IMG/VR virus record: IMGVR_UViG_3300027791_002180
Span: 1 to 24,588 of that record
Direction: 5' to 3' (one strand)
Source of the DNA: a virus
Length of the DNA stretch: 24,588 bases
Shown: piece after piece, positions 1 through 17,947 of the stretch
How positions within the stretch are numbered: the stretch's first letter is position 1
Layout of the letters: each line of letters opens with the position of its first letter
Notes under the pieces: model-generated
What the model saw: the letters and a program-made list of their open reading frames with translations, nothing else
Told to the model about the DNA's origin: nothing
Database searches by the model: none
Program-made: the position numbers and the translations under genes

Positions 1-574
1 AGTCGCCATCTTGTGTTATTGATAGTATATTATTATCACCAGTAATCGGTGCACCGGTAATCCCTCCAACAGCATTGTTGTCTCCGTCTTGATCTACAAC
101 AAAAGTATTGTCATCACCATTTGCTTCTATACCAGCCGCATTGTAGTTGCCGTCTTGTGTAATTGTACCAGTTTGGTCGCTATCGCCGCCGTTACCAAAC
201 TCTAAATTTGCTAAGTTGTTGTTACCATTTTGCGTAATGGTTGTTGAACAGTTGTTGCCGTGACAGTCTGACGTAGCATAGTTAGTATTACCTGTTTGTG
301 TAATTGTCTGCTGTCCATTGCCAGCACTCATATACACTCCTATATCATTGTTGTCGCCTGTTTGTGTAAATGTTGTGCTTGTGTTATTACCGCTAATAGG
401 GGCTTTCCTAGTGTTACCAGCAACCGAACTGATAACATTATTTTCACCGTCTTGAACTATAGTCAAGTCAATGTTATCACCAGCCTGGTAGATGTAAATA
501 TCATTAGCCCAACTAGTTGTTGGTTTGAATAATAGTAATACTATTAGTGCCTTCGCTACCCAATCTATAGTCAT
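1..574 (-). CDS. Curlin-like secreted repeat protein B (partial, runs off left edge)
   Basis: This reading frame is open from an ATG at 574 to the window edge, so the C-terminus is missing. It starts with a signal peptide ending in TSWA, followed by NDIYIYQAGD. The mature part is a run of Asn/Gly/Gln-rich units of the type ITQxGxxN and GDNN, typical of curlin (CsgA/CsgB) amyloid repeats. The N-terminus closely matches the curlin-like gene at 1672-2409 (shared WANDIYI-Q-GD and QDG--NVI), so the two are paralogues. A strong Shine-Dalgarno (AAGGGGAG, 10 nt upstream) decides the start, although it lies inside the end of the FecR gene (62-nt overlap). Inferred role: a second fibre subunit exported through the CsgG pore encoded upstream. 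Major versus minor (nucleator) subunit cannot be decided. Confidence 0.82.
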   Translation of the reverse strand, partial: MTIDWVAKALIVLLLFKPTTSWANDIYIYQAGDNIDLTIVQDGENNVISSVAGNTRKAPISGNNTSTTFTQTGDNNDIGVYMSAGNGQQTITQTGNTNYATSDCHGNNCSTTITQNGNNNLANLEFGNGGDSDQTGTITQDGNYNAAGIEANGDDNTFVVDQDGDNNAVGGITGAPITGDNNILSITQDGD

Positions 575-1670
575 ATAGAAAGAACTCCCCTTGTTGTACG
601 TCTAGTGTATAATCGTGCATGTTATTTAATCTTAACCTAATAAATCCGCCTTGGCCAAAGTCTTCACGTTGCCAAACATAAAACGGCTCTTCAATATCTA
701 ATCTAATTTGTGTTTTAGGATCAAATCCTACTGTTGGTACGTTTGTTAATAGTCTAGCATTTTGTCTTGCTAGTTCATCTCTAAATAATGCCGCCAGTGC
801 TTCGTTAAGTTTGTCTAACATATCATGTAGCATATCTGCTAACATAAAGTCTGTTTCGTCTAGTGCTGTTGCCCAAATGCCTTCAATACTGTCTTTGAGA
901 GCGTCTCCGTCTAGCCCATCAAACTCTAAAAAGTCAACTCCTAAAAAGTCTGCTAGTTTTCTACGTCTTTGCATTTCTTCTTCTGCGTATTCATCAATTG
1001 GACTTCGTTTACGCAATAGTAATAAGTTGTTAATTTGATCTTCGTTTAGATCTAGTATTACTGGAGGAGTTGGTTTACGCATACCATGTGTTGTTGCTGT
1101 TGCTTGAAATGCTTTATTCATAATAACAAATCCAGCATCAGTTTCTACTTTTATTTCACCCACATAACACATACCTGCTGTATCACAACTTGGAAGTAGT
1201 GTAATCATACTTCCTCCAACTTCATCAACAACCATTATGAAATCTGTACCACGTACACCAATAGTAGCACTCGGAGTGCTTATCTTTACATTTTGTTTAT
1301 ATTTTTTAGCAATTTGTCCGCTTGCGTACCTTACTGTTCCTAATGACGCTTTCATTGACAACGATCCTATATCGTTAGCAGGATCGTATACAAATTCGTC
1401 AATAACTAATCTTGATTGTTCAGTAAGCTCAACTCGAGTTTCGTCTATAAAGTCAATACGCATGGTACCGTTTGCTGTTACGGCTGTGTCCATACTTTGA
1501 ACGCCGGCACCTACTTTGCCGTCTATAACGACATCGGCGCCACGCTCTAACACACCACTTCCTTTTACTTGACTAATTGATCCCGCATTTTTACCATAGG
1601 CTGGTTCTATCAGCGTAGCGAGTAAAAATAACATTGCTAACAATATAAATGTTAGCCTGTTTGGAGCCAT
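513..1670 (-). CDS. Secreted FecR-domain protein in the curli-like operon
   Basis: A 385-residue protein with an N-terminal signal peptide (about 1-27, ending near EPAYG) and a FecR-type domain at about residues 30-155. It shows the family's periodic pattern: a G-V-L start, a D-x-x-x-T-x-x-G-x-x-x-I-x-F-x-D-x-T stretch, and the closing TPSATIGVRGTDF. The C-terminal half has charged, probably helical stretches and no second membrane span, so this is a periplasmic or secreted FecR-fold protein rather than a classical membrane anti-sigma regulator. I chose the ATG at 1670 because AAAGGGA sits 5 nt upstream and the previous stop ends 1 nt before it; an upstream TTG at 1694 lacks a ribosome site. 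Lying between two curlin paralogues, it probably helps curli assembly or surface anchoring (inference). Confidence 0.8.
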   Translation of the reverse strand: MAPNRLTFILLAMLFLLATLIEPAYGKNAGSISQVKGSGVLERGADVVIDGKVGAGVQSMDTAVTANGTMRIDFIDETRVELTEQSRLVIDEFVYDPANDIGSLSMKASLGTVRYASGQIAKKYKQNVKISTPSATIGVRGTDFIMVVDEVGGSMITLLPSCDTAGMCYVGEIKVETDAGFVIMNKAFQATATTHGMRKPTPPVILDLNEDQINNLLLLRKRSPIDEYAEEEMQRRRKLADFLGVDFLEFDGLDGDALKDSIEGIWATALDETDFMLADMLHDMLDKLNEALAALFRDELARQNARLLTNVPTVGFDPKTQIRLDIEEPFYVWQREDFGQGGFIRLRLNNMHDYTLDVQQGEFFLYDYRLGSEGTNSITIIQTNN

Positions 1671-1671
1671 G

Positions 1672-2409
1672 TTAGTCCCTTTGTATAATGTCAACGTCTT
1701 GACCGTCCCCAGAGAAGTCAGCGTCTATCGTATTATCATATATTCCACTTTGTGTAACATCGTAACTACTTCCGCCACCTGTAACATTTAGTGTTACTGA
1801 GTGTCCTGAACTATCGCCGTCTCCGTCAATGTCAAAGTCAATTACGTTACCTGATCCAGTTGATGAAAGTGTGCTTGCTGTATTAGATGCACCTCCACTT
1901 GCTAAACTTGAACTGTTGTTAACTGTAACTGCTATTACAGCACTCTTGCCGTCAACGTTTGAATTAATTACGTTGTTTGATCCCGTAACTGTAAATCCAA
2001 TGGTTGATCCATCAGCATCTGCTGTATCACCTATATCAAATGTAAATGCATTTGAGCTACCTGATGCGGTTATGTTCATGGTAATGTTTTCACAATTAGT
2101 TCCTGATGTGCTATCACAACTTAGATCCACTGTGTTACTATCGCCTGTAAATGTCCAAGCGCCTGTATAACTGGCACCTCTTATGTTTGCGATAATTTGG
2201 TTAAAACTACCTGTTTGTGTTATTGCAAAAGTCATATTCGCTCCTGCTAAATTAACGTCGGTACTGCTAGTACCAATTACGTTGTCTTGGCCGTCTTGTG
2301 TTATATCTAAATCTAAAGTGTCTCCTACTTGCTCAATGTAGATATCATTTGCCCAAGTTGGTGACGCTAATAAAATTAAAAATAAAAGCCCTCTTATTAT
2401 TGTTTTCAT
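1672..2409 (-). CDS. Curlin-like secreted repeat protein A
   Basis: A 245-residue protein with a clear signal peptide (cleavage after SPTWA, residue 20). The mature chain is rich in Asn, Ser, Thr, Asp and Gly, poor in Lys/Arg, and begins ITQDGQDNVIG and ITQTGSFNQI, the Q-x-G-x-x-N spacing of curlin repeats. Later units diverge to GSGNVIDFDIDGDGD-like blocks. The length exceeds E. coli CsgA (about 150). One Cys pair (DSTSGTNCEN region) is unusual for curlins and may form a disulfide. The start is an ATG with AAGGAG 4 nt upstream; csgG ends 8 nt before it and the FecR start follows its stop after 1 nt. Likely a fibre subunit exported through CsgG. Assembly into amyloid is inferred from repeat pattern and context. 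Confidence 0.82.
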   Translation of the reverse strand: MKTIIRGLLFLILLASPTWANDIYIEQVGDTLDLDITQDGQDNVIGTSSTDVNLAGANMTFAITQTGSFNQIIANIRGASYTGAWTFTGDSNTVDLSCDSTSGTNCENITMNITASGSSNAFTFDIGDTADADGSTIGFTVTGSNNVINSNVDGKSAVIAVTVNNSSSLASGGASNTASTLSSTGSGNVIDFDIDGDGDSSGHSVTLNVTGGGSSYDVTQSGIYDNTIDADFSGDGQDVDIIQRD

Positions 2410-2417
2410 TGCTCTCC

Positions 2418-3353
2418 TTATTCTTTGGTGTCATTTATAGGCCAACATAAGTCTTGATTGTTGCAGTATAGTCTACTTTCCGGCCATTTCTCTAAAGCAT
2501 CGTTAAATGGTAGAGGTCTTGGCCTTGGTGTCTTGCCCTTATATGTTGTATCTTTAAACTTCCAAAGTCCTTTCTTTTCACCTTCGTATACCAGTTGAAC
2601 TACACCTGCTTCAATAGCCGCCCTTACAGCATAATTTACTGGCTCGTTAACAGAGTAACCTGTTTCCGATTCTATTAATTTAGTTCCTAAGTCTAAAAAC
2701 TTAAAAACGTCCGCTCCGGACCTTGAACTTGCAATAGTCTTTTCTGTTGCAATACTTAACAACACTTTACCAGTGCTGACTGACACCACTCTCATCACTA
2801 TTGTGACTGTATCAACCCTGTACTCTGTTTGAGCACCCACGCCTAAATATCTGCCTCCTACTCCACCAACAGCAACGTTGCTATCGTAACCAATTATGCC
2901 GCCTTCTAGTATTAATCCTGCGAACACCATTGGTTTCAATGCTCTTGGACCGTTCGGTAAGTTTTTCTCGTATACTTCTCTAGTGTTACGGATCAACTGT
3001 CTTTCTTTAATCAAGTTATCCATCCCTATACGTTCTACAACTTCGAACCATGTTTCGTTGCCTACTTCAGCTAGTGCTTTTATAACCCACACTTCTGATC
3101 CTTGTGTTACTGCACTCGATAGATTAGCAATACTATCTGCTGGTTTACGTTGCCCTGTTTTGTCTAAAAAACTGTAAACTGCTATAGTTATTCTCTTGCC
3201 ATCTAGCTCAGGTACTGAAACCATTCTGTCAGCTAACGGAGCCGGCTGTACACGTGGTGGTCCAGCATTTTCCTTTATAGTCAGCGACTGTTGCATGGTA
3301 TTACTGCACCCAGTAAGTAACAATATGCCTATCAAAAATATTATGCGATTCAA
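2418..3353 (-). CDS. csgG: CsgG-family curli secretion pore lipoprotein
   Basis: A 311-residue lipoprotein with signal peptide and lipobox LLTGC (Cys16). The body matches CsgG: a conserved RITIAVYSFLDKTGQ strand, then the segment with WFEVVERIGMDNLIKERQLIR, then GLILEGGIIGYDSNVAVGGVGGRYLGVG and YRVDTVTIVMRVVSVSTGKVL, which in E. coli build the periplasmic cup and transmembrane hairpins of the nonameric outer-membrane pore. CsgG exports unfolded curlins. The start is a TTG whose last bases overlap the csgF stop (TTGA), with AGGGA 10 nt upstream and no ATG before the lipobox, so translation is probably coupled to csgF. It is about 30 residues longer than E. coli CsgG. Family confidence is high. 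Confidence 0.93.
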   Translation of the reverse strand: MNRIIFLIGILLLTGCSNTMQQSLTIKENAGPPRVQPAPLADRMVSVPELDGKRITIAVYSFLDKTGQRKPADSIANLSSAVTQGSEVWVIKALAEVGNETWFEVVERIGMDNLIKERQLIRNTREVYEKNLPNGPRALKPMVFAGLILEGGIIGYDSNVAVGGVGGRYLGVGAQTEYRVDTVTIVMRVVSVSTGKVLLSIATEKTIASSRSGADVFKFLDLGTKLIESETGYSVNEPVNYAVRAAIEAGVVQLVYEGEKKGLWKFKDTTYKGKTPRPRPLPFNDALEKWPESRLYCNNQDLCWPINDTKE

Positions 3354-3820
3354 AAGTTAAAATTCCCTGTTCCTGGTATTTCAATAGTAGTTGTGCTTCC
3401 ATCGGCTTCAATAACAGTTAGCGTAATCGCTCCTGTTGTTGTGTCTTTAACCCAGCTAATGCTTGAGCCTTCGATTTCTGCTGTTCCACTGGTAGCACAA
3501 CTTGCGCCACAATCAGCAAACATACTATCTACCATCTGTTTACTTAACGTTGCGTATATTCTCGACTCAACGTTCTTAACAAATTTGTTTAGGGTAGTAT
3601 TTTCTAATTCTCTTTCTAGTCGCTTTGCCTCTGCTTCTGCCTTGTCTTTAAGATCTTGCTTTCTATTATGTTGTAGCTGTTCAACACTTAAAACGTGTGA
3701 AGAATAACCATTTCCATAATGGAAGGCTGGAGATTTAAAACTCCATATCATTTCGGCGGACGCCGCGTTACTAAAAACTACTAATACTACACTGGTTATA
3801 TATAAAAACTTTTTGTACAT
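3350..3820 (-). CDS. csgF: CsgF-like curli assembly factor
   Basis: A 156-residue secreted protein with signal peptide ending SNAASA (residue 22). The mature N-terminus WSFKSPAFHYGNGYSSHVLS corresponds to the conserved CsgF N-terminal region that inserts into the CsgG pore (family pattern F-x-x-P-x-F-G-N). A charged helix (about 50-80) and a C-terminal beta region (ISWVKDTTTGAITLTVIEADG) also match the family layout. Known role: CsgF caps the CsgG channel at the cell surface and couples secretion to nucleation. It is the first gene of the locus, with AGGAG 8 nt before its ATG and two late-type promoter boxes upstream. Two Cys (CGASC) near residue 105 are unusual and could form a disulfide. 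Confidence 0.85.
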   Translation of the reverse strand: MYKKFLYITSVVLVVFSNAASAEMIWSFKSPAFHYGNGYSSHVLSVEQLQHNRKQDLKDKAEAEAKRLERELENTTLNKFVKNVESRIYATLSKQMVDSMFADCGASCATSGTAEIEGSSISWVKDTTTGAITLTVIEADGSTTTIEIPGTGNFNF

Positions 3821-5904: not shown

Positions 5905-6492
5905 TTAGTAAGTTAAATTGTTTAGTTCTTCAAAAATCTTAGTTGAGAAATCAAAAGCAATGTTTGCTTCATCAGACATACTATCTTTAGTACGCTTGCG
6001 AATTAATGTTTTCATTTCATCTACAGAGTGTGTCATTGCTTCGAATGTATACATTTTTCCTGATCCTGGAACTTTGTTCTTAATCATTTGTCCGCCACTT
6101 AAATCGCCCATGTGCCTTACATAAACGTGTGCAAACAACTTGTCTTTATCATGTTGACAGTTTGTTACAATGTGACTTCTGTATGCTTCTGCTGAAGGTA
6201 CAACTTGTGGTGGATTTTCTTCTGTTCCACCTAATTCTGTATAGTCTGCCCAAATATCATCTGCTTGTGTTAACCCATCTAATGGTAGGTCGTCTTCTGG
6301 CATTGATAAGTCTTCTGGACCAAAACAACCCATGCTTAGTGCAACATCTTCTAAGAGGTCGTATACTAGCCACATGTTGTATAGGTACGTTTTATATTTT
6401 TCGTTGCTCATATTACCTGACATCATTTCTCTTGCGAATTCTTGACGTTCTGCGTTCTGATGAGCGACTTTTGTTAGTGATGCTAAACTCAT
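5905..6492 (-). CDS. ho1: Heme oxygenase (biliverdin-forming)
   Basis: A 195-residue HO-1-family protein. The proximal heme ligand is His11 in TKVAHQNAER. The distal helix carries HVYVRHMGDLSGGQMI (residues 122-137), with the flexible GG characteristic of the family. The enzyme opens heme to biliverdin, CO and Fe2+, using ferredoxin-type reductant in phage and cyanobacterial versions. It is slightly shorter than cyanobacterial Ho1 (about 240). AAGGAG lies 7 nt before the ATG, and an exact late box TATAAATA lies 44 nt upstream. The next gene is the bilin reductase, so biliverdin is probably the intended product rather than only iron release. Confidence 0.93.
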   Translation of the reverse strand: MSLASLTKVAHQNAERQEFAREMMSGNMSNEKYKTYLYNMWLVYDLLEDVALSMGCFGPEDLSMPEDDLPLDGLTQADDIWADYTELGGTEENPPQVVPSAEAYRSHIVTNCQHDKDKLFAHVYVRHMGDLSGGQMIKNKVPGSGKMYTFEAMTHSVDEMKTLIRKRTKDSMSDEANIAFDFSTKIFEELNNLTY

Positions 6493-6535
6493 TTAATTAC
6501 TCCTTGTGTAATAGTTATCATTCAATTTACTAGTG

Positions 6536-6543
6536 TATTTATA
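6536..6543 (-). promoter_or_regulatory. Consensus late promoter TATAAATA for ho1 and bilin reductase
   Basis: An exact minus-strand TATAAATA sits directly after the clpS stop and 44 nt before the heme oxygenase ATG. The bilin pair therefore appears to be expressed late. Confidence 0.65.
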
Positions 6544-6855
6544 CTATTCTTTTTCAATTGCTACCTGTAACGGATAGCCACGTTCCCTTGAAATCTTAGT
6601 ACATTCTACTGCTTTTTGCTCGGCAATTTCAAATGTGTACAGTCCAACAACTGCTGAGCCTTTATCATGTATTGCCATAGTTAGTTCTTGTGCAGTTTGT
6701 GCAGAATGTCTAAAGATATCTACTAGTAAACTTACAACAAAATCCATTGGAGTTTCGTTGTCATTGGCAAATATTACCTTATACTTGCCTGGATCTTGGA
6801 CCACTTCCTTGATCTTTTCTTTTACATTAATTTCTGTTTCTAGTTCTACGCTCAT
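6544..6855 (-). CDS. clpS: ClpS-family Clp protease adaptor
   Basis: A 103-residue protein with the ClpS core: PGKYKVIFANDNETPMDFVVSLLVDIF and AIHDKGSAVVGLYTFEIAEQKAVECTKISRERGYPLQVAIEKE. The N-degron pocket residues are present (Asn31, Asp32, Thr35, Met37, His63 in AIHDKG). ClpS binds the N-domain of ClpA, delivers N-end-rule substrates and in E. coli suppresses ClpAP degradation of ssrA-tagged proteins. The N-terminal arm (about 20 residues) needed for that modulation is present here. It follows hsp20 in a likely proteostasis pair. A phage tmRNA in the same window makes an ssrA-type tag, so the adaptor may steer host ClpAP (inference). Confidence 0.92.
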   Translation of the reverse strand: MSVELETEINVKEKIKEVVQDPGKYKVIFANDNETPMDFVVSLLVDIFRHSAQTAQELTMAIHDKGSAVVGLYTFEIAEQKAVECTKISRERGYPLQVAIEKE

Positions 6856-6873
6856 ATCATCTTTCCTTAATTC

Positions 6874-6895
6874 GGGGGAGGTATTTCACTCCCCC
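6874..6895 (-). terminator. GC-rich hairpin between hsp20 and clpS
   Basis: A perfect 7-bp inverted repeat (GGGGGAG / CTCCCCC) with an 8-nt loop lies 13 nt after the hsp20 stop. It lacks a T-run on the minus strand, so it could be a weak terminator, a processing or stability hairpin, rather than a classical rho-independent terminator. Confidence 0.5.
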
Positions 6896-6907
6896 TAGAC
6901 TGTTTAC

Positions 6908-7366
6908 TTACTTTTTTTTGCCGTCAATTGTAAGACCATCATTGATCTTAATTGTCTTAGGTTTTAATGCATCCGGTACTTCACGTACTAGATGAACATT
7001 TAGCATACCTAGTTCTAGTGTTGCGCCTGCAACATTAACATGGTCAGCAAGTGTAAACTCCCTGCGGAAGTTGCGTCCACCAATACCTTTGTGTAGGTAG
7101 TTGACATCTTCATCTCCTTTAGGGGCTGTCCCTACAATCTGTAATTGATCACCATCTTTGGTAACATCAAGATTGTGCATACTAAAGCCAGCCACTGCGA
7201 CTGAGATCATATACTCGTCTTCGTTGACTTGTGCGATATTGTATGGGGGATAACCATTTCCATTTGGGCTATTTGCAAATCCTCTTTCGAGTTCATTAAA
7301 TAGTCTATCAAAGCCAATAGTAGCTCTGTGGAAGTGTGGTAGGTCTAGAGTTGTTAGTCTTGTCAT
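6908..7366 (-). CDS. Hsp20 / small heat-shock protein
   Basis: A 152-residue protein with an alpha-crystallin domain at about 38-140. It has the usual start MTRLTTLDLPHFHRATIGFDRLFNEL seen in IbpA-like proteins, the strand ISVAVAGFSMHNLDVTKDGDQLQIVG, and GMLNVHLVREVPDALKPK, corresponding to the conserved G-x-L motif. It holds unfolded proteins. The frame is open upstream to 7453, but the ATG at 7366 has AAGGAG 6 nt before it and matches the family N-terminus, so the 29-residue extension is rejected. Hsp20 is a recurrent gene in T4-like marine phages. A GATAAATA box lies upstream at 7462-7455. Confidence 0.95.
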   Translation of the reverse strand: MTRLTTLDLPHFHRATIGFDRLFNELERGFANSPNGNGYPPYNIAQVNEDEYMISVAVAGFSMHNLDVTKDGDQLQIVGTAPKGDEDVNYLHKGIGGRNFRREFTLADHVNVAGATLELGMLNVHLVREVPDALKPKTIKINDGLTIDGKKK

Positions 7367-7454
7367 TGTTTTCTCCTTATGATAAGCAAGATTTATATAT
7401 TTTACAGTCCCTAATGGGCACTGCATGTACATTGAGCTCTTCTCTTTGTACACA

Positions 7455-7462
7455 TTTATTTA
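7455..7462 (-). promoter_or_regulatory. Late promoter box GATAAATA before hsp20
   Basis: Minus-strand GATAAATA overlaps the guaC stop codon and would give an hsp20 leader of about 80 nt. A second, poorer box (TATAAATC) lies at 7397-7390. Confidence 0.45.
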
Positions 7463-8604
7463 TCATTTGACGCATAAACACCGTTAAATTGCTGGCTACA
7501 GCGTACAAACGTTGTGCATCGCATAAGATGCTTTAATCTTAATGCGCCTGCATAAGTGCAAGTACTACGCAATCCGCCTAGTAAATCCTGCACTGTGGCC
7601 GCTACTTCTCCTCTGTAAGGAACAAGTACTTCACGACCTTCTGATGAACGATAGTCTTTAAGTCCACCAAAATGCTTTGTGTTAGCGGCATCACTACTCA
7701 TGCCGTAGAACTGTACAAACTGTTTTGTTTCAACTTTCTTTGTATGCTTATCTAAGTGATTACCTATTTCGTATACAAGTTCGGTTGTTTCGTAATACTT
7801 TGTAATAACATCACCACCGCCTTCATCGTGTCCTGCAAGCATACCTCCAAGCATTACAAAGTCGGCTCCACCAGCGAAAGCCTTAGCGACATCACCAGGA
7901 CAAGTACAGCCGCCATCAGCGATAATATGTCCACCAAGTCCATGTGCCGCATCCGCACACTCAATAACTGCACTAAGTTGAGGATAACCAACGCCAGTCT
8001 GTATACGAGTAGTACAAACACTACCTGGACCAATCCCAACTTTAACAATGTCTGCTCCTGCAAGTATTAATTCCTCTGTCATTTCACCAGTAACTACGTT
8101 ACCAGCAATGATTACAATATTTGGATAAAGTTTTCTAAACTCTGCCACTGTATCTCTAAAGCGACTACTGTAGCCGTTTGCTACATCAATACAAACGTAT
8201 TTTAATCGATCGTTAACTTGTTCATATACAATTCTGAATTTTTCATGATCGGCATCTGTAATACCAATGCTCATAGCAACATATTCTGTTCTTGCAGGAT
8301 CATGTGATCTGTCATCTTGGTCAAAGTAATCTACAAGTTCCTTAATACTATAAGTCTTAACCAAACAGGTAAAGATACCTCCTGTAGCAAGTGTATCTGC
8401 CATTTCAAATGTACCAACACCATCCATGTTACTTGCCATAATAGGCGTGCCACGATAGTGTCTATGCATTGGACGTGGTCCTTTGTAGTTACGGAAGGTA
8501 AATCCACGTTCTAGATCTACATCCTTACGTGAACCTAGCGTACTACGTTTAGGACGAATAAGAACATCTTTGTAATCTAATTTCATATCTTCTTCAATAC
8601 GCAT
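7456..8604 (-). CDS. guaC: GMP reductase (GuaC-type IMPDH/GMPR family)
   Basis: A 382-residue TIM-barrel enzyme. The catalytic loop [19 protein letters not shown] carries the thioimidate Cys197. The following [54 protein letters not shown] and [25 protein letters not shown] are GMP-reductase features. The CBS pair typical of IMP dehydrogenase is absent, and the length is close to E. coli GuaC (347) with a small extension. It converts GMP plus NADPH to IMP and ammonia, moving purines from G toward A. The ATG directly follows the 2OG-oxygenase stop (TAAATG) with GAGGT upstream. In an AT-rich virus with its own RNR this would support dATP supply (inference). Confidence 0.93.
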
Positions 8605-16523: not shown

Positions 16524-17111
16524 TTAGAACTTAAACGTTAAACCTACTTCAGCGTTTCTATCGCCTGCATTCTTAAAATTGATGTCACGTGCTTCTGTAA
16601 CAGTTAATTTTGCACTAACTGCTTCTGATAAAGCATACGATGCGCCTACTTCAACATATGAAGAGTCGCGATCAAAGTCTACAATATCATTTTGAGTTGA
16701 CTGCCATGCATAACCTAGTTCTGCAAATGGTGTTAGTTTGCCCATGGTGTGCGTTACACCTACGTACGGTGAAAGATCCATTGTACGGGTGTCTGCTGTA
16801 AAGCTATCACCAAAGCTAAATTCTGCTGATGCACCTGCATATAACGGAGTTGCTGGAACATTCATTTCTTTGCCTAGTTTTAAAGCAAAGTCGTCTACAG
16901 CGCCGTTACGTTTCCATTTTACTGTAGCATCTAGTGATGACACTTCGCCAGCTACTGCAAACTCAGTTGCACCTGTTTTTGGTGACTTGATGCTAATTGA
17001 ATAGTCATCAGTAACTGCGGTCATCTTAATCGCAGTGTTGTCGAAATCTTCTGCAAAAGCAGTCGAACTCAACATAGTCGCAATAGCGACCATTAGTAAA
17101 GTTTTTTTCAT
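16524..17111 (-). CDS. Small outer-membrane beta-barrel protein
   Basis: A 195-residue protein with signal peptide MKKTLLMVAIATMLSSTAFA. The mature part alternates hydrophobic and polar residues in strands separated by turns (VKWKRNG, LYAGASAEFSFG, DLSPYVGVTHTMGKLTPFAELGYAWQS, SYVEVGASYALSEAVSAKLTVTEARD) and ends VGLTFKF with the terminal Phe used by the BAM machinery. Size suits an 8- to 10-stranded barrel. Known families cannot be assigned. It has its own terminator, and its leader (about 95 nt) carries a late box CATAAATA and a hairpin. A phage-made porin may alter the host surface or block further adsorption (inference). Confidence 0.82.
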   Translation of the reverse strand: MKKTLLMVAIATMLSSTAFAEDFDNTAIKMTAVTDDYSISIKSPKTGATEFAVAGEVSSLDATVKWKRNGAVDDFALKLGKEMNVPATPLYAGASAEFSFGDSFTADTRTMDLSPYVGVTHTMGKLTPFAELGYAWQSTQNDIVDFDRDSSYVEVGASYALSEAVSAKLTVTEARDINFKNAGDRNAEVGLTFKF

Positions 17112-17219: not shown

Positions 17220-17556
17220 TTTGGGGGATAAGAGTGCGACTTTTCTGTTGCTAGGTAAGTCGCCAACCCCGAGCGATTATGCCGCTAGGGCAAAATCCTC
17301 AGTTGCGGCAAATTTGTTTAATGCACCGAAGTCCACAAAATTAAATTCGCCATTGTTTACAGTTGCTTTTGCAATTATAAAGTTCGTTCGCGTTAACCGA
17401 GCTTACATCCGGACAACTCCACATATTCTATTAACCGTCAGTCGATCCTATTTCAACCCCATCATAAGCACACTAATTGTGCAATGTGTTTATGGTGGAG
17501 TTGCCGGGTACCGCCCCCGGGTCCTGTCCAGTGTTTGAATTGCTTCAACATTGTAA
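17220..17556 (-). ncRNA. ssrA: Two-piece (circularly permuted) tmRNA
   Basis: Acceptor piece first: a T-arm (CCGGG, 7-nt loop GGCGGTA, CCCGG at 17521-17505), then CAACTCC and ACCA ending at 17494. A 33-nt intervening loop with a GCACA/TGTGC hairpin follows, then the coding piece starting GGGGTTG at 17460. CAACTCC and GGGGTTG pair over 7 bp with a G3-U70 wobble, the alanine identity element. AGGATCGAC matches the conserved 5' tmRNA motif. The resume frame starts at 17372 (GCA) after TATAATT and reads AKATVNNGEF to ATEDFALAA, stop at 17277, 32 residues and longer than usual. After the stop, GTTG/CAAC and GCGACTT/AAGTCGC form a pseudoknot. The T-loop departs from UUCRA. The piece ends are approximate. 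It rescues stalled ribosomes. Confidence 0.92.
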
Positions 17557-17560
17557 GTAT

Positions 17561-17591
17561 ATTTATACACTCTTATTGTGTGGATGTCAAG
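17561..17591 (-). promoter_or_regulatory. tmRNA promoter: sigma70 -35/-10 fused with a late box
   Basis: Minus-strand TTGACA (17591-17586), a 17-bp spacer and TATAAA (17568-17563). The -10 is extended to TATAAATA, the consensus late box (17568-17561). The same site could serve host sigma70 early and the phage late sigma factor later. The -35 lies inside the end of the DUF3307 gene. Confidence 0.78.
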
Positions 17592-17947
17592 AGAAGAATG
17601 TAAAAAAGATAACAAGTATAATGTAATATTTGATCGGTTGTCTGTGCTATCCAATATTTGTTATCAGTATTTGTCCATTTGTACTTTTGAATTAATTTTG
17701 TTTTAAAGTGATCAATAATAAAATGAAGTACATAATCTAACAATGCAATTACGATTGACATAACAACATGATTAGTTAAAAGAGCTATAACTATAAAAGT
17801 AAGTACTGCATGATCGCCCGCATGGATATAACCTTTAGGACTTCTAAGGTTAGCTTTATCTCCGGGAGTTTTTCTAAACGATTGCATTGCCAAATCGGCA
17901 ATAGCATGTTTTACAAACAGTCCATATAGTATTATTAAACTTTCCAT
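17573..17947 (-). CDS. DUF3307-family membrane protein
   Basis: A 124-residue integral membrane protein. It matches the DUF3307 layout: LIILYGLFVKHAIADLAMQSFRKTPGDKANL (His14, Asp18 and Gln22 in the H-x-x-x-D-x-x-x-Q motif, then K), GYIHAGDHAVLTFIVIALLT, and LLDYVLHFIIDHFKTKLIQKY with the second H-x-x-x-D-x-x-K motif, then WIAQTTDQILHYTCYLF. His/Asp pairs on membrane helices suggest a metal site; biochemical function is unknown. It follows the cold-shock gene by 15 nt; AAGGA is 12 nt from the ATG. The end carries the -35 of the tmRNA promoter. Confidence 0.8.
   Translation of the reverse strand: MESLIILYGLFVKHAIADLAMQSFRKTPGDKANLRSPKGYIHAGDHAVLTFIVIALLTNHVVMSIVIALLDYVLHFIIDHFKTKLIQKYKWTNTDNKYWIAQTTDQILHYTCYLFYILLLTSTQ

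Follow-up and report, generated by a model that had tools for sequence, protein, structure and literature searches.

We found that a 24,588-base viral DNA record in IMG/VR (the window, meaning the whole stretch analysed) carries a real and probably functional phage tmRNA, which is a member of a known RNA family and encodes a tag of a new kind. Infernal matched the alpha_tmRNA model RF01849 over model positions 1-355 at 17607-17233 on the minus strand (118.0 bits, cut-off 50, E 5.6e-32) and the tmRNA_permuted model RF04321 at 17555-17277, minus (92.1 bits, cut-off 47), and ARAGORN called a permuted tmRNA at 17587-17186, minus, with the tag AKATVNNGEFNFVDFGALNKFAATEDFALAA. The locus has the make-up of a permuted alphaproteobacterial-type tmRNA: both gathering scores are exceeded, the acceptor piece comes first, the acceptor stem has 7 bp with G3-U70, and an open tag frame with a hydrophobic end and a stop follows the resume codon (ARAGORN; RF01849 alignment). 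The features of the gene and of the neighbours discussed below are as follows.

17493..17555, minus: acceptor piece, 5' end uncertain, ending in the encoded CCA at 17495-17493 (RF01849 and RF04321 alignments, sequence)
Within 17493..17555, minus: T-arm CCGGG-GGCGGUA-CCCGG (sequence, covariance-model alignments)
17503-17497, minus: acceptor 3' strand CAACTCC, then A 17496 and CCA 17495-17493 (sequence)
17461..17492, minus: intervening segment, a near-perfect hairpin (sequence, fold, RF04321 layout)
17233..17460, minus: coding piece, with the 5' acceptor strand, the tag frame and the 3' domain (RF01849)
17460-17454, minus: acceptor 5' strand GGGGTTG, RNA GGGGUUG (sequence)
17280..17372, minus: tag frame AKATVNNGEFNFVDFGALNKFAATEDFALAA, 31 codons, with the resume codon GCA at 17372-17370 (ARAGORN)
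17328..17339, minus: inner motif FVDF, tag codons 12-15, conserved as FV[DN]F (codon-change pattern, 36 modules)
17280..17300, minus: C-terminal EDFALAA, a degron-like end (sequence; ends of relatives)
17279-17277, minus: tag stop TAA (sequence, ARAGORN)
17560..17590, minus: composite promoter, TTGACA 17590-17585, 17-nt spacer, TATAAA 17567-17562
17567-17560, minus: TATAAATA, containing TATAAA (sequence)
17573..17947, minus: upstream neighbour, gene of a DUF3307 membrane protein (PF11750, E 5.7e-8; phrog_2470)
6544..6855, minus: ClpS adaptor gene, a proposed functional partner (PF02617, E 1.3e-25)

The two acceptor strands, as read from the sequence, pair at 7/7 positions with G3-U70. The same full pairing with G3-U70 was found in 93 of 94 related phage modules, with covariation at pairs 4-6, and the lone exception, L248, is a row that was parsed wrongly. 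The fold of 17229-17565 gave a z of -4.09 against 100 shuffles, which together with the pairing and covariation indicates structure beyond chance. The resume context UUAUAAUUGCAAA agrees with the RF01849 consensus (Infernal alignment). The tmRNA occupies most of a 461-base gap between minus-strand open reading frames at 16524-17111 and 17573-17947, and the hairpin between its two pieces is expected to be removed by processing. These results bear out the original prediction of a complete permuted two-piece layout on the minus strand with a fully paired G3-U70 acceptor stem, and the covariance-model check that it proposed gave minus-strand matches to both models. Its 32-residue tag comes to 31 encoded codons, the count of 32 being right when the uncoded charged alanine is included. 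The T-loop GGCGGUA, which it had called odd, is the printed RF01849 consensus and is present in 51 of the 94 related phage modules; the idea of an unusual T-loop was therefore rejected, and the loop is an ordinary feature.

The window encodes a ribonucleotide reductase of phage type as well as tail and endolysin proteins. Its population is seen again in L122, a contig of 69 kb whose shared neighbouring genes are 99-100% identical and which also has genes for a ligase, a tail fibre and the baseplate wedge. The nearest relatives were HTVC008M and Melnitz by CsgG, and cyanophages and Mosig by NrdA. HTVC008M, Melnitz and Mosig are all listed as Kyanoviridae, and it is from related phages that we infer the terms T4-like and marine. 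Records with a relative of the DUF3307 gene carried a permuted tmRNA in 29 of 31 cases, 28 of them over the cut-off. Among the 134 bacterial loci compared, the one most like the window tmRNA reached 89.6% over 67 nt (L277) and the next 79.3% over 87 nt, and none was a near-identical ssrA, which answers the question of a host copy that had been raised with the prediction. PMC9004378 states that prophages can integrate at host ssrA and that pieces of ssrA turn up in them; the locus might accordingly come from the host, or be a non-functional piece of ssrA acquired by the phage. The viral record, the phage genes here and in the 69-kb contig, the conservation of the locus and the lack of a close bacterial copy among the 134 loci make such an origin extremely improbable; host contamination was rejected, and the gene is phage-encoded, as had been claimed.

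Three further observations concern the genome context. A curli-like cluster lies at 2-3820, with CsgG, CsgF and, by eye, a FecR-like protein and curlin-repeat proteins; the window CsgG has 47.5-51% identity to those of Melnitz and HTVC008M. At 5905-8604, genes for heme oxygenase, ClpS, an Hsp20-like protein (by eye) and an IMPDH/GMP reductase-like protein stand in a row, possibly a host-takeover cluster. The L277 contig has the tag ANDNSYAREDFALAA, and it is the 3' end of this locus, at the 89.6% given above, that is nearest to the window's among the compared bacterial loci; the genome that holds it, G033, a Rhodobacteraceae bin, has 8 permuted tmRNA matches, and this bin probably holds phage contigs, the L277 contig being one.

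We compared the tag with those of bacteria. A permuted tmRNA match was found in 359 of 385 alphaproteobacterial genomes, and the 108 tags that ARAGORN read from 112 bacterial loci, a sample of 104 distinct genes (4/108 rows repeat a gene) that leans to high-scoring matches, had 9-15 residues, save one 19-residue call without an AA end. At 31 codons, the window tag is 2-3 times as long as the tags of the bacteria examined, in agreement with its earlier description as unusually long. In the order of one small genome that was picked by its rhodopsin content, an order which we infer to be Pelagibacterales, 129 of 147 genomes had a tmRNA match, and 32/32 tags read had 9 residues (for example, ANNKLALAA and ANESYALAA). 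The viral contigs L029, L041, L083, L086 and L087 also carry ANESYALAA, the tag of L464 and L467 in two genomes of this order, which reflects either a host-phage tag match or host DNA in those contigs. The EDFALAA pattern, searched in one genome per species across 84,980 species, gave 22 stretches, and a tmRNA with a 9-15-residue tag could be read in 15 of them. A profile of the tag weakly matched 73 of the 385 alphaproteobacterial genomes (E up to 1, best 0.0078), and the sole match tied by eye to a tmRNA, in G419, lay over the tag's end. A tag 2-3 times the length seen in these bacteria, with a conserved inner stretch, hints at a use beyond marking for destruction, and long tags offer degrons unlike the 9-15-residue tags of the sampled bacteria.

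The window belongs to a long-tag family that we defined in this analysis by a 29-31-residue tag, FV[DN]F, an EDFALAA-like end and an NrdB-Grx-tmRNA-Snase neighbourhood. IMG/VR was searched with a pattern that required TGCAAA, FV[DN]F and, at the end, GC-GC-TAA, leaving both spacing and frame open. The pattern matched 89 stretches, 80 of which were examined, and an in-frame family tag was present in 77 of the 80, the exceptions being L330, L339 and L357. We collected 27 peptides from 107 viral loci, some sharing one contig, with lengths of 29 (48 loci), 30 (13) and 31 (46) residues; CCACCA stood upstream of the tag in 107/107, and all 107 had tags of 29, 30 or 31 codons, though the search pattern left the frame free. 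By motif-blind routes, the tags of at least 29 residues with an EDFALAA end among the matches listed all have FV[DN]F, and the sole other long call among them, L191, begins at a false upstream codon. Another 28 EDFALAA rows without a script-found start are ends of short ANDN/ANDD tags and have no FV[DN]F. A T-arm/acceptor pattern was found in at least 120 IMG/VR stretches; ARAGORN called a tmRNA in 67 of the 120 listed, and a script read a tag in 20 of the remaining 53, plus one doubtful. A different long tag, AKKSTTFASILPVKVERVSLVQEALAASA (29 residues), in L069 and L073, has no kinship with the FV[DN]F family.

All the members encountered came from a single group of T4-like phages. BLASTN with the tmRNA and tblastn with the tag gave no match in 50,697 phage records, indicating that no family member is present there at that sensitivity, and no account of long conserved tags in phages, or of tag modules being exchanged, turned up in the open-licence PMC literature. 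The long conserved tag of this phage tmRNA is new. A two-piece phage tmRNA is not new in itself, being common and already known, with 53 two-piece forms reported among 133 unique phage tmRNAs (PMC9004378). The earlier observation is confirmed, and its interpretation is supported in part; the conserved tag family with its inner FV[DN]F and the exchange of the tag/3' module, described below, were beyond its reach.

To follow selection on the tag, we counted codon changes. Type A modules are defined by FV[DN]F itself; the count used the 36 that came from searches not using the FV[DN]F pattern, on a tree built from sequence outside the tag, and left out 13 of the 49 type A modules, which are known from the motif pattern alone (L330-L366). 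This 36-module count is meaningful because the motif-blind routes gave no member without FV[DN]F among the matches listed. The results showed 0 changes at codon positions 1-2 of F12, V13 and F15 and 9, 8 and 3 changes, respectively, at position 3 (20 in total), where such step counts presuppose a tree that recombination can distort, inflating the counts, and the 5' part of L248 is mis-parsed. V13 is written with all four Val codons, F12 and F15 with both Phe codons, and codon 14 shows D/N swaps. This codon pattern indicates that FV[DN]F is held at the peptide level. The motif could instead be kept for RNA structure, given that tmRNA is highly structured and that a large part of the tag region is paired in the single-sequence fold, but the choice of codons at V13, F12 and F15, the D/N swaps and the tag lengths, which remain in frame, argue against this, and we consider it improbable. 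Pairwise pN/pS was 0.57 over the whole tag and 0.555 over codons 7-24, motif included. It reached 1.35 in the first six codons, indicating that the tag start is not conserved and that the constraint is local; the value of 0 over the last 7 codons stems in part from the search pattern itself and was not used as evidence.

Relatives found without the EDFALAA pattern end in EDFALAA, EDYALAA, EDFAIAA or EELALAA. The ANDN start, common in relatives, is absent from the window tag, which may mean a loss of SspB-mediated delivery. In many relatives both the ANDN start and the ALAA end are kept, with about 15-17 residues between them, and same-locus tags of related phages have 9-24 residues, as might be expected if this were an ordinary phage tmRNA that adds rescue capacity, its long tag being no more than a flexible linker that sets the adaptor contact apart from the protease contact. 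Under such a spacer role there would be no need for F12, V13 and F15 to stay fixed through 20 changes, all of them synonymous, when most of the other positions in the insert vary, and we regard this explanation as possible but rather unlikely.

The gene order of the group is kept as NrdA-NrdB-Grx-g18428-(CspA-DUF3307)-tmRNA-Snase among the rows listed. A tmRNA-blind census through the nuclease gene covered the best 80 loci among the matches listed, and the NrdB-g18428 neighbourhood was found in 38. Within these 38, still counting the best 80 among the matches listed, an FV[DN]F tag was present in 21, an ANDNYAPEMA[ML]AA tag in 7 and a ANANFKPEAFTS[IL]DMSMDSELLAA tag in 3; the other 7 had no tmRNA, and the Rfam search also found none there, indicating that the tmRNA is dispensable for some related phages. 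Nine-residue forms (ANANYSLAA/ANANIALAA) occur in a similar setting. Pairwise comparison of 70 modules gave 59 of 2,415 pairs that are 88% or more identical as far as the resume codon and 60% or less beyond it, and 5 pairs with the reverse pattern, a count that omits the mis-parsed L248 (59/2,485 and 8 reverse with it). Shuffled sequences beyond the resume codon had a mean identity of 55% and a maximum of 65%. L143-L145 are chimeras, with a tRNA-like half near the nine-residue type and a UUCAAUU T-loop joined to a 3' half with an FV[DN]F tag. Near-identical 5' halves joined to unrelated tag/3' domains, or no tmRNA at all, at the same spot indicate that the tag module has been exchanged, and the conserved block right before the resume codon may be a natural crossover site. 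We tentatively propose, with somewhat less than even confidence, that these phages hold exchangeable tag modules, in which the tRNA-like half stays while the tag and 3' domain change places at the resume codon, and in which FV[DN]F is a second signal steering rescued polypeptides to a particular partner. If so, the partner would be an adaptor or a protease, of host or phage origin, the phage would benefit, and a virus would be rewriting the tag code of its host.

The composite promoter-like site, of sigma70 and T4-late type, overlaps the end of the DUF3307 gene, and TATAAATA within it is the T4 late consensus. A sigma70-like pair, counted as TTGAC[AT]-16..18-TATA[AT], lay within 100 nt upstream of 79/94 related modules versus 67 of 7,941 control windows, and TATAAATA lay within the same distance of 78/94 modules versus 30/7,941 windows. 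A separate promoter scan is without this site because it demands T as the last base of the second hexamer.

We also looked for protein partners. No smpB match was found in 50 records, three complete isolate genomes included, while control genomes were positive in 10 of 14. The window ClpS aligned with the solved ClpS (PDB 1mbu, ClpS/yljA) over residues 11-102 (E 1.4e-19), including the ND..TPM stretch and the H. A ClpS match was present in 18 of 28 long-tag records, 5 of 19 other tmRNA-bearing viral records and 0/3 isolates, and in the 11 records with both genes placed it lay 9.9-13.6 kb downstream of the tmRNA. IMG/VR records are mostly fragments; in each of the 10 long-tag records that lack ClpS, the sequence stops no more than about 12 kb downstream of the tmRNA, and truncation may account for the missing gene. 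The long-tag phages found are one lineage; co-occurrence with ClpS is therefore not independent evidence, and ClpS as independent support is weakened by this shared ancestry. ClpS inhibits ClpAP degradation of SsrA-tagged proteins, as stated in PMC12493166, and a phage ClpS may for that reason bias tagged proteins from ClpAP to ClpXP. That the phage uses ClpS to steer tagged proteins is a guess.

Taken together, we consider it highly probable that the locus is a working phage tmRNA that has its own promoter, would depend on host processing, AlaRS and SmpB, and encodes a 31-codon tag with an ALAA degron and a selected FV[DN]F. In infection, it would be transcribed from this promoter by the host sigma70 polymerase, and probably again late. 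Host tRNA-processing enzymes would cut the precursor into the acceptor and coding pieces, host AlaRS would charge the tmRNA via G3-U70, and host SmpB, which we assume, would bring it to stalled ribosomes. Trans-translation would then append the 31-codon tag, whose ClpX-type ALAA degron would lead to degradation, and FV[DN]F could give an extra contact with a protease, an adaptor or another partner; the phage ClpS may shift tagged proteins from ClpAP to ClpXP. Its likely role is extra ribosome rescue via host SmpB with a phage-specific tag. A lengthened, peptide-conserved and module-exchanged tag is evolutionary evidence that the tag itself, beyond ribosome release, matters to the phage, and three residues in one peptide are a small, precise target for finding the host or phage factor that reads it.

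Among known systems, mycobacteriophage DS6A also carries a tmRNA-like RNA. PMC11915505 reports that this RNA has no tag frame and that it inhibits tmRNA, unlike the window tmRNA with its complete selected tag. DS6A provides a phage precedent (PMC11915505, PMC4131195) for a decoy, a tRNA-like RNA that inhibits host trans-translation, but the window RNA retains CCA, G3-U70, the resume codon, an open selected tag and a stop, and a decoy function is very unlikely. The Pelagibacter phages HTVC008M and Mosig, which have a SAR11 host, carry a permuted tmRNA as the window does; their ARAGORN tags, ANFNEYALAA and GEDNFALAA, are unlike the window tag, and neither record has a ClpS match. In Mosig (L288), ARAGORN starts the tag at GEDNFALAA, and an in-frame upstream GCA would give AFLNGEDNFALAA (by eye). 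Melnitz (MZ577097.1; PMC9004378), a marine Kyanoviridae myophage, shares with the window a permuted two-piece phage tmRNA and curli genes. Its ssrA also has TTGACA-N17-TATAAA upstream (read from the sequence), but its tag ANDNYVPVDYALAA has 14 residues versus 31 in the window, and its neighbours differ. PMC9004378 reports a glutamine riboswitch in Melnitz, whereas no glutamine (glnA-type) riboswitch was found in the window, where only the two tmRNA families reach the gathering score (Rfam), and Melnitz-like riboswitch control was rejected. With RF01849 and RF04321, finally, the window tmRNA shares the layout, the T-loop consensus, G3-U70, the resume context and a full-length model match; it differs in the tag, which has 9-15 residues in all but one of the 108 alphaproteobacterial tags read and 31 in the window.
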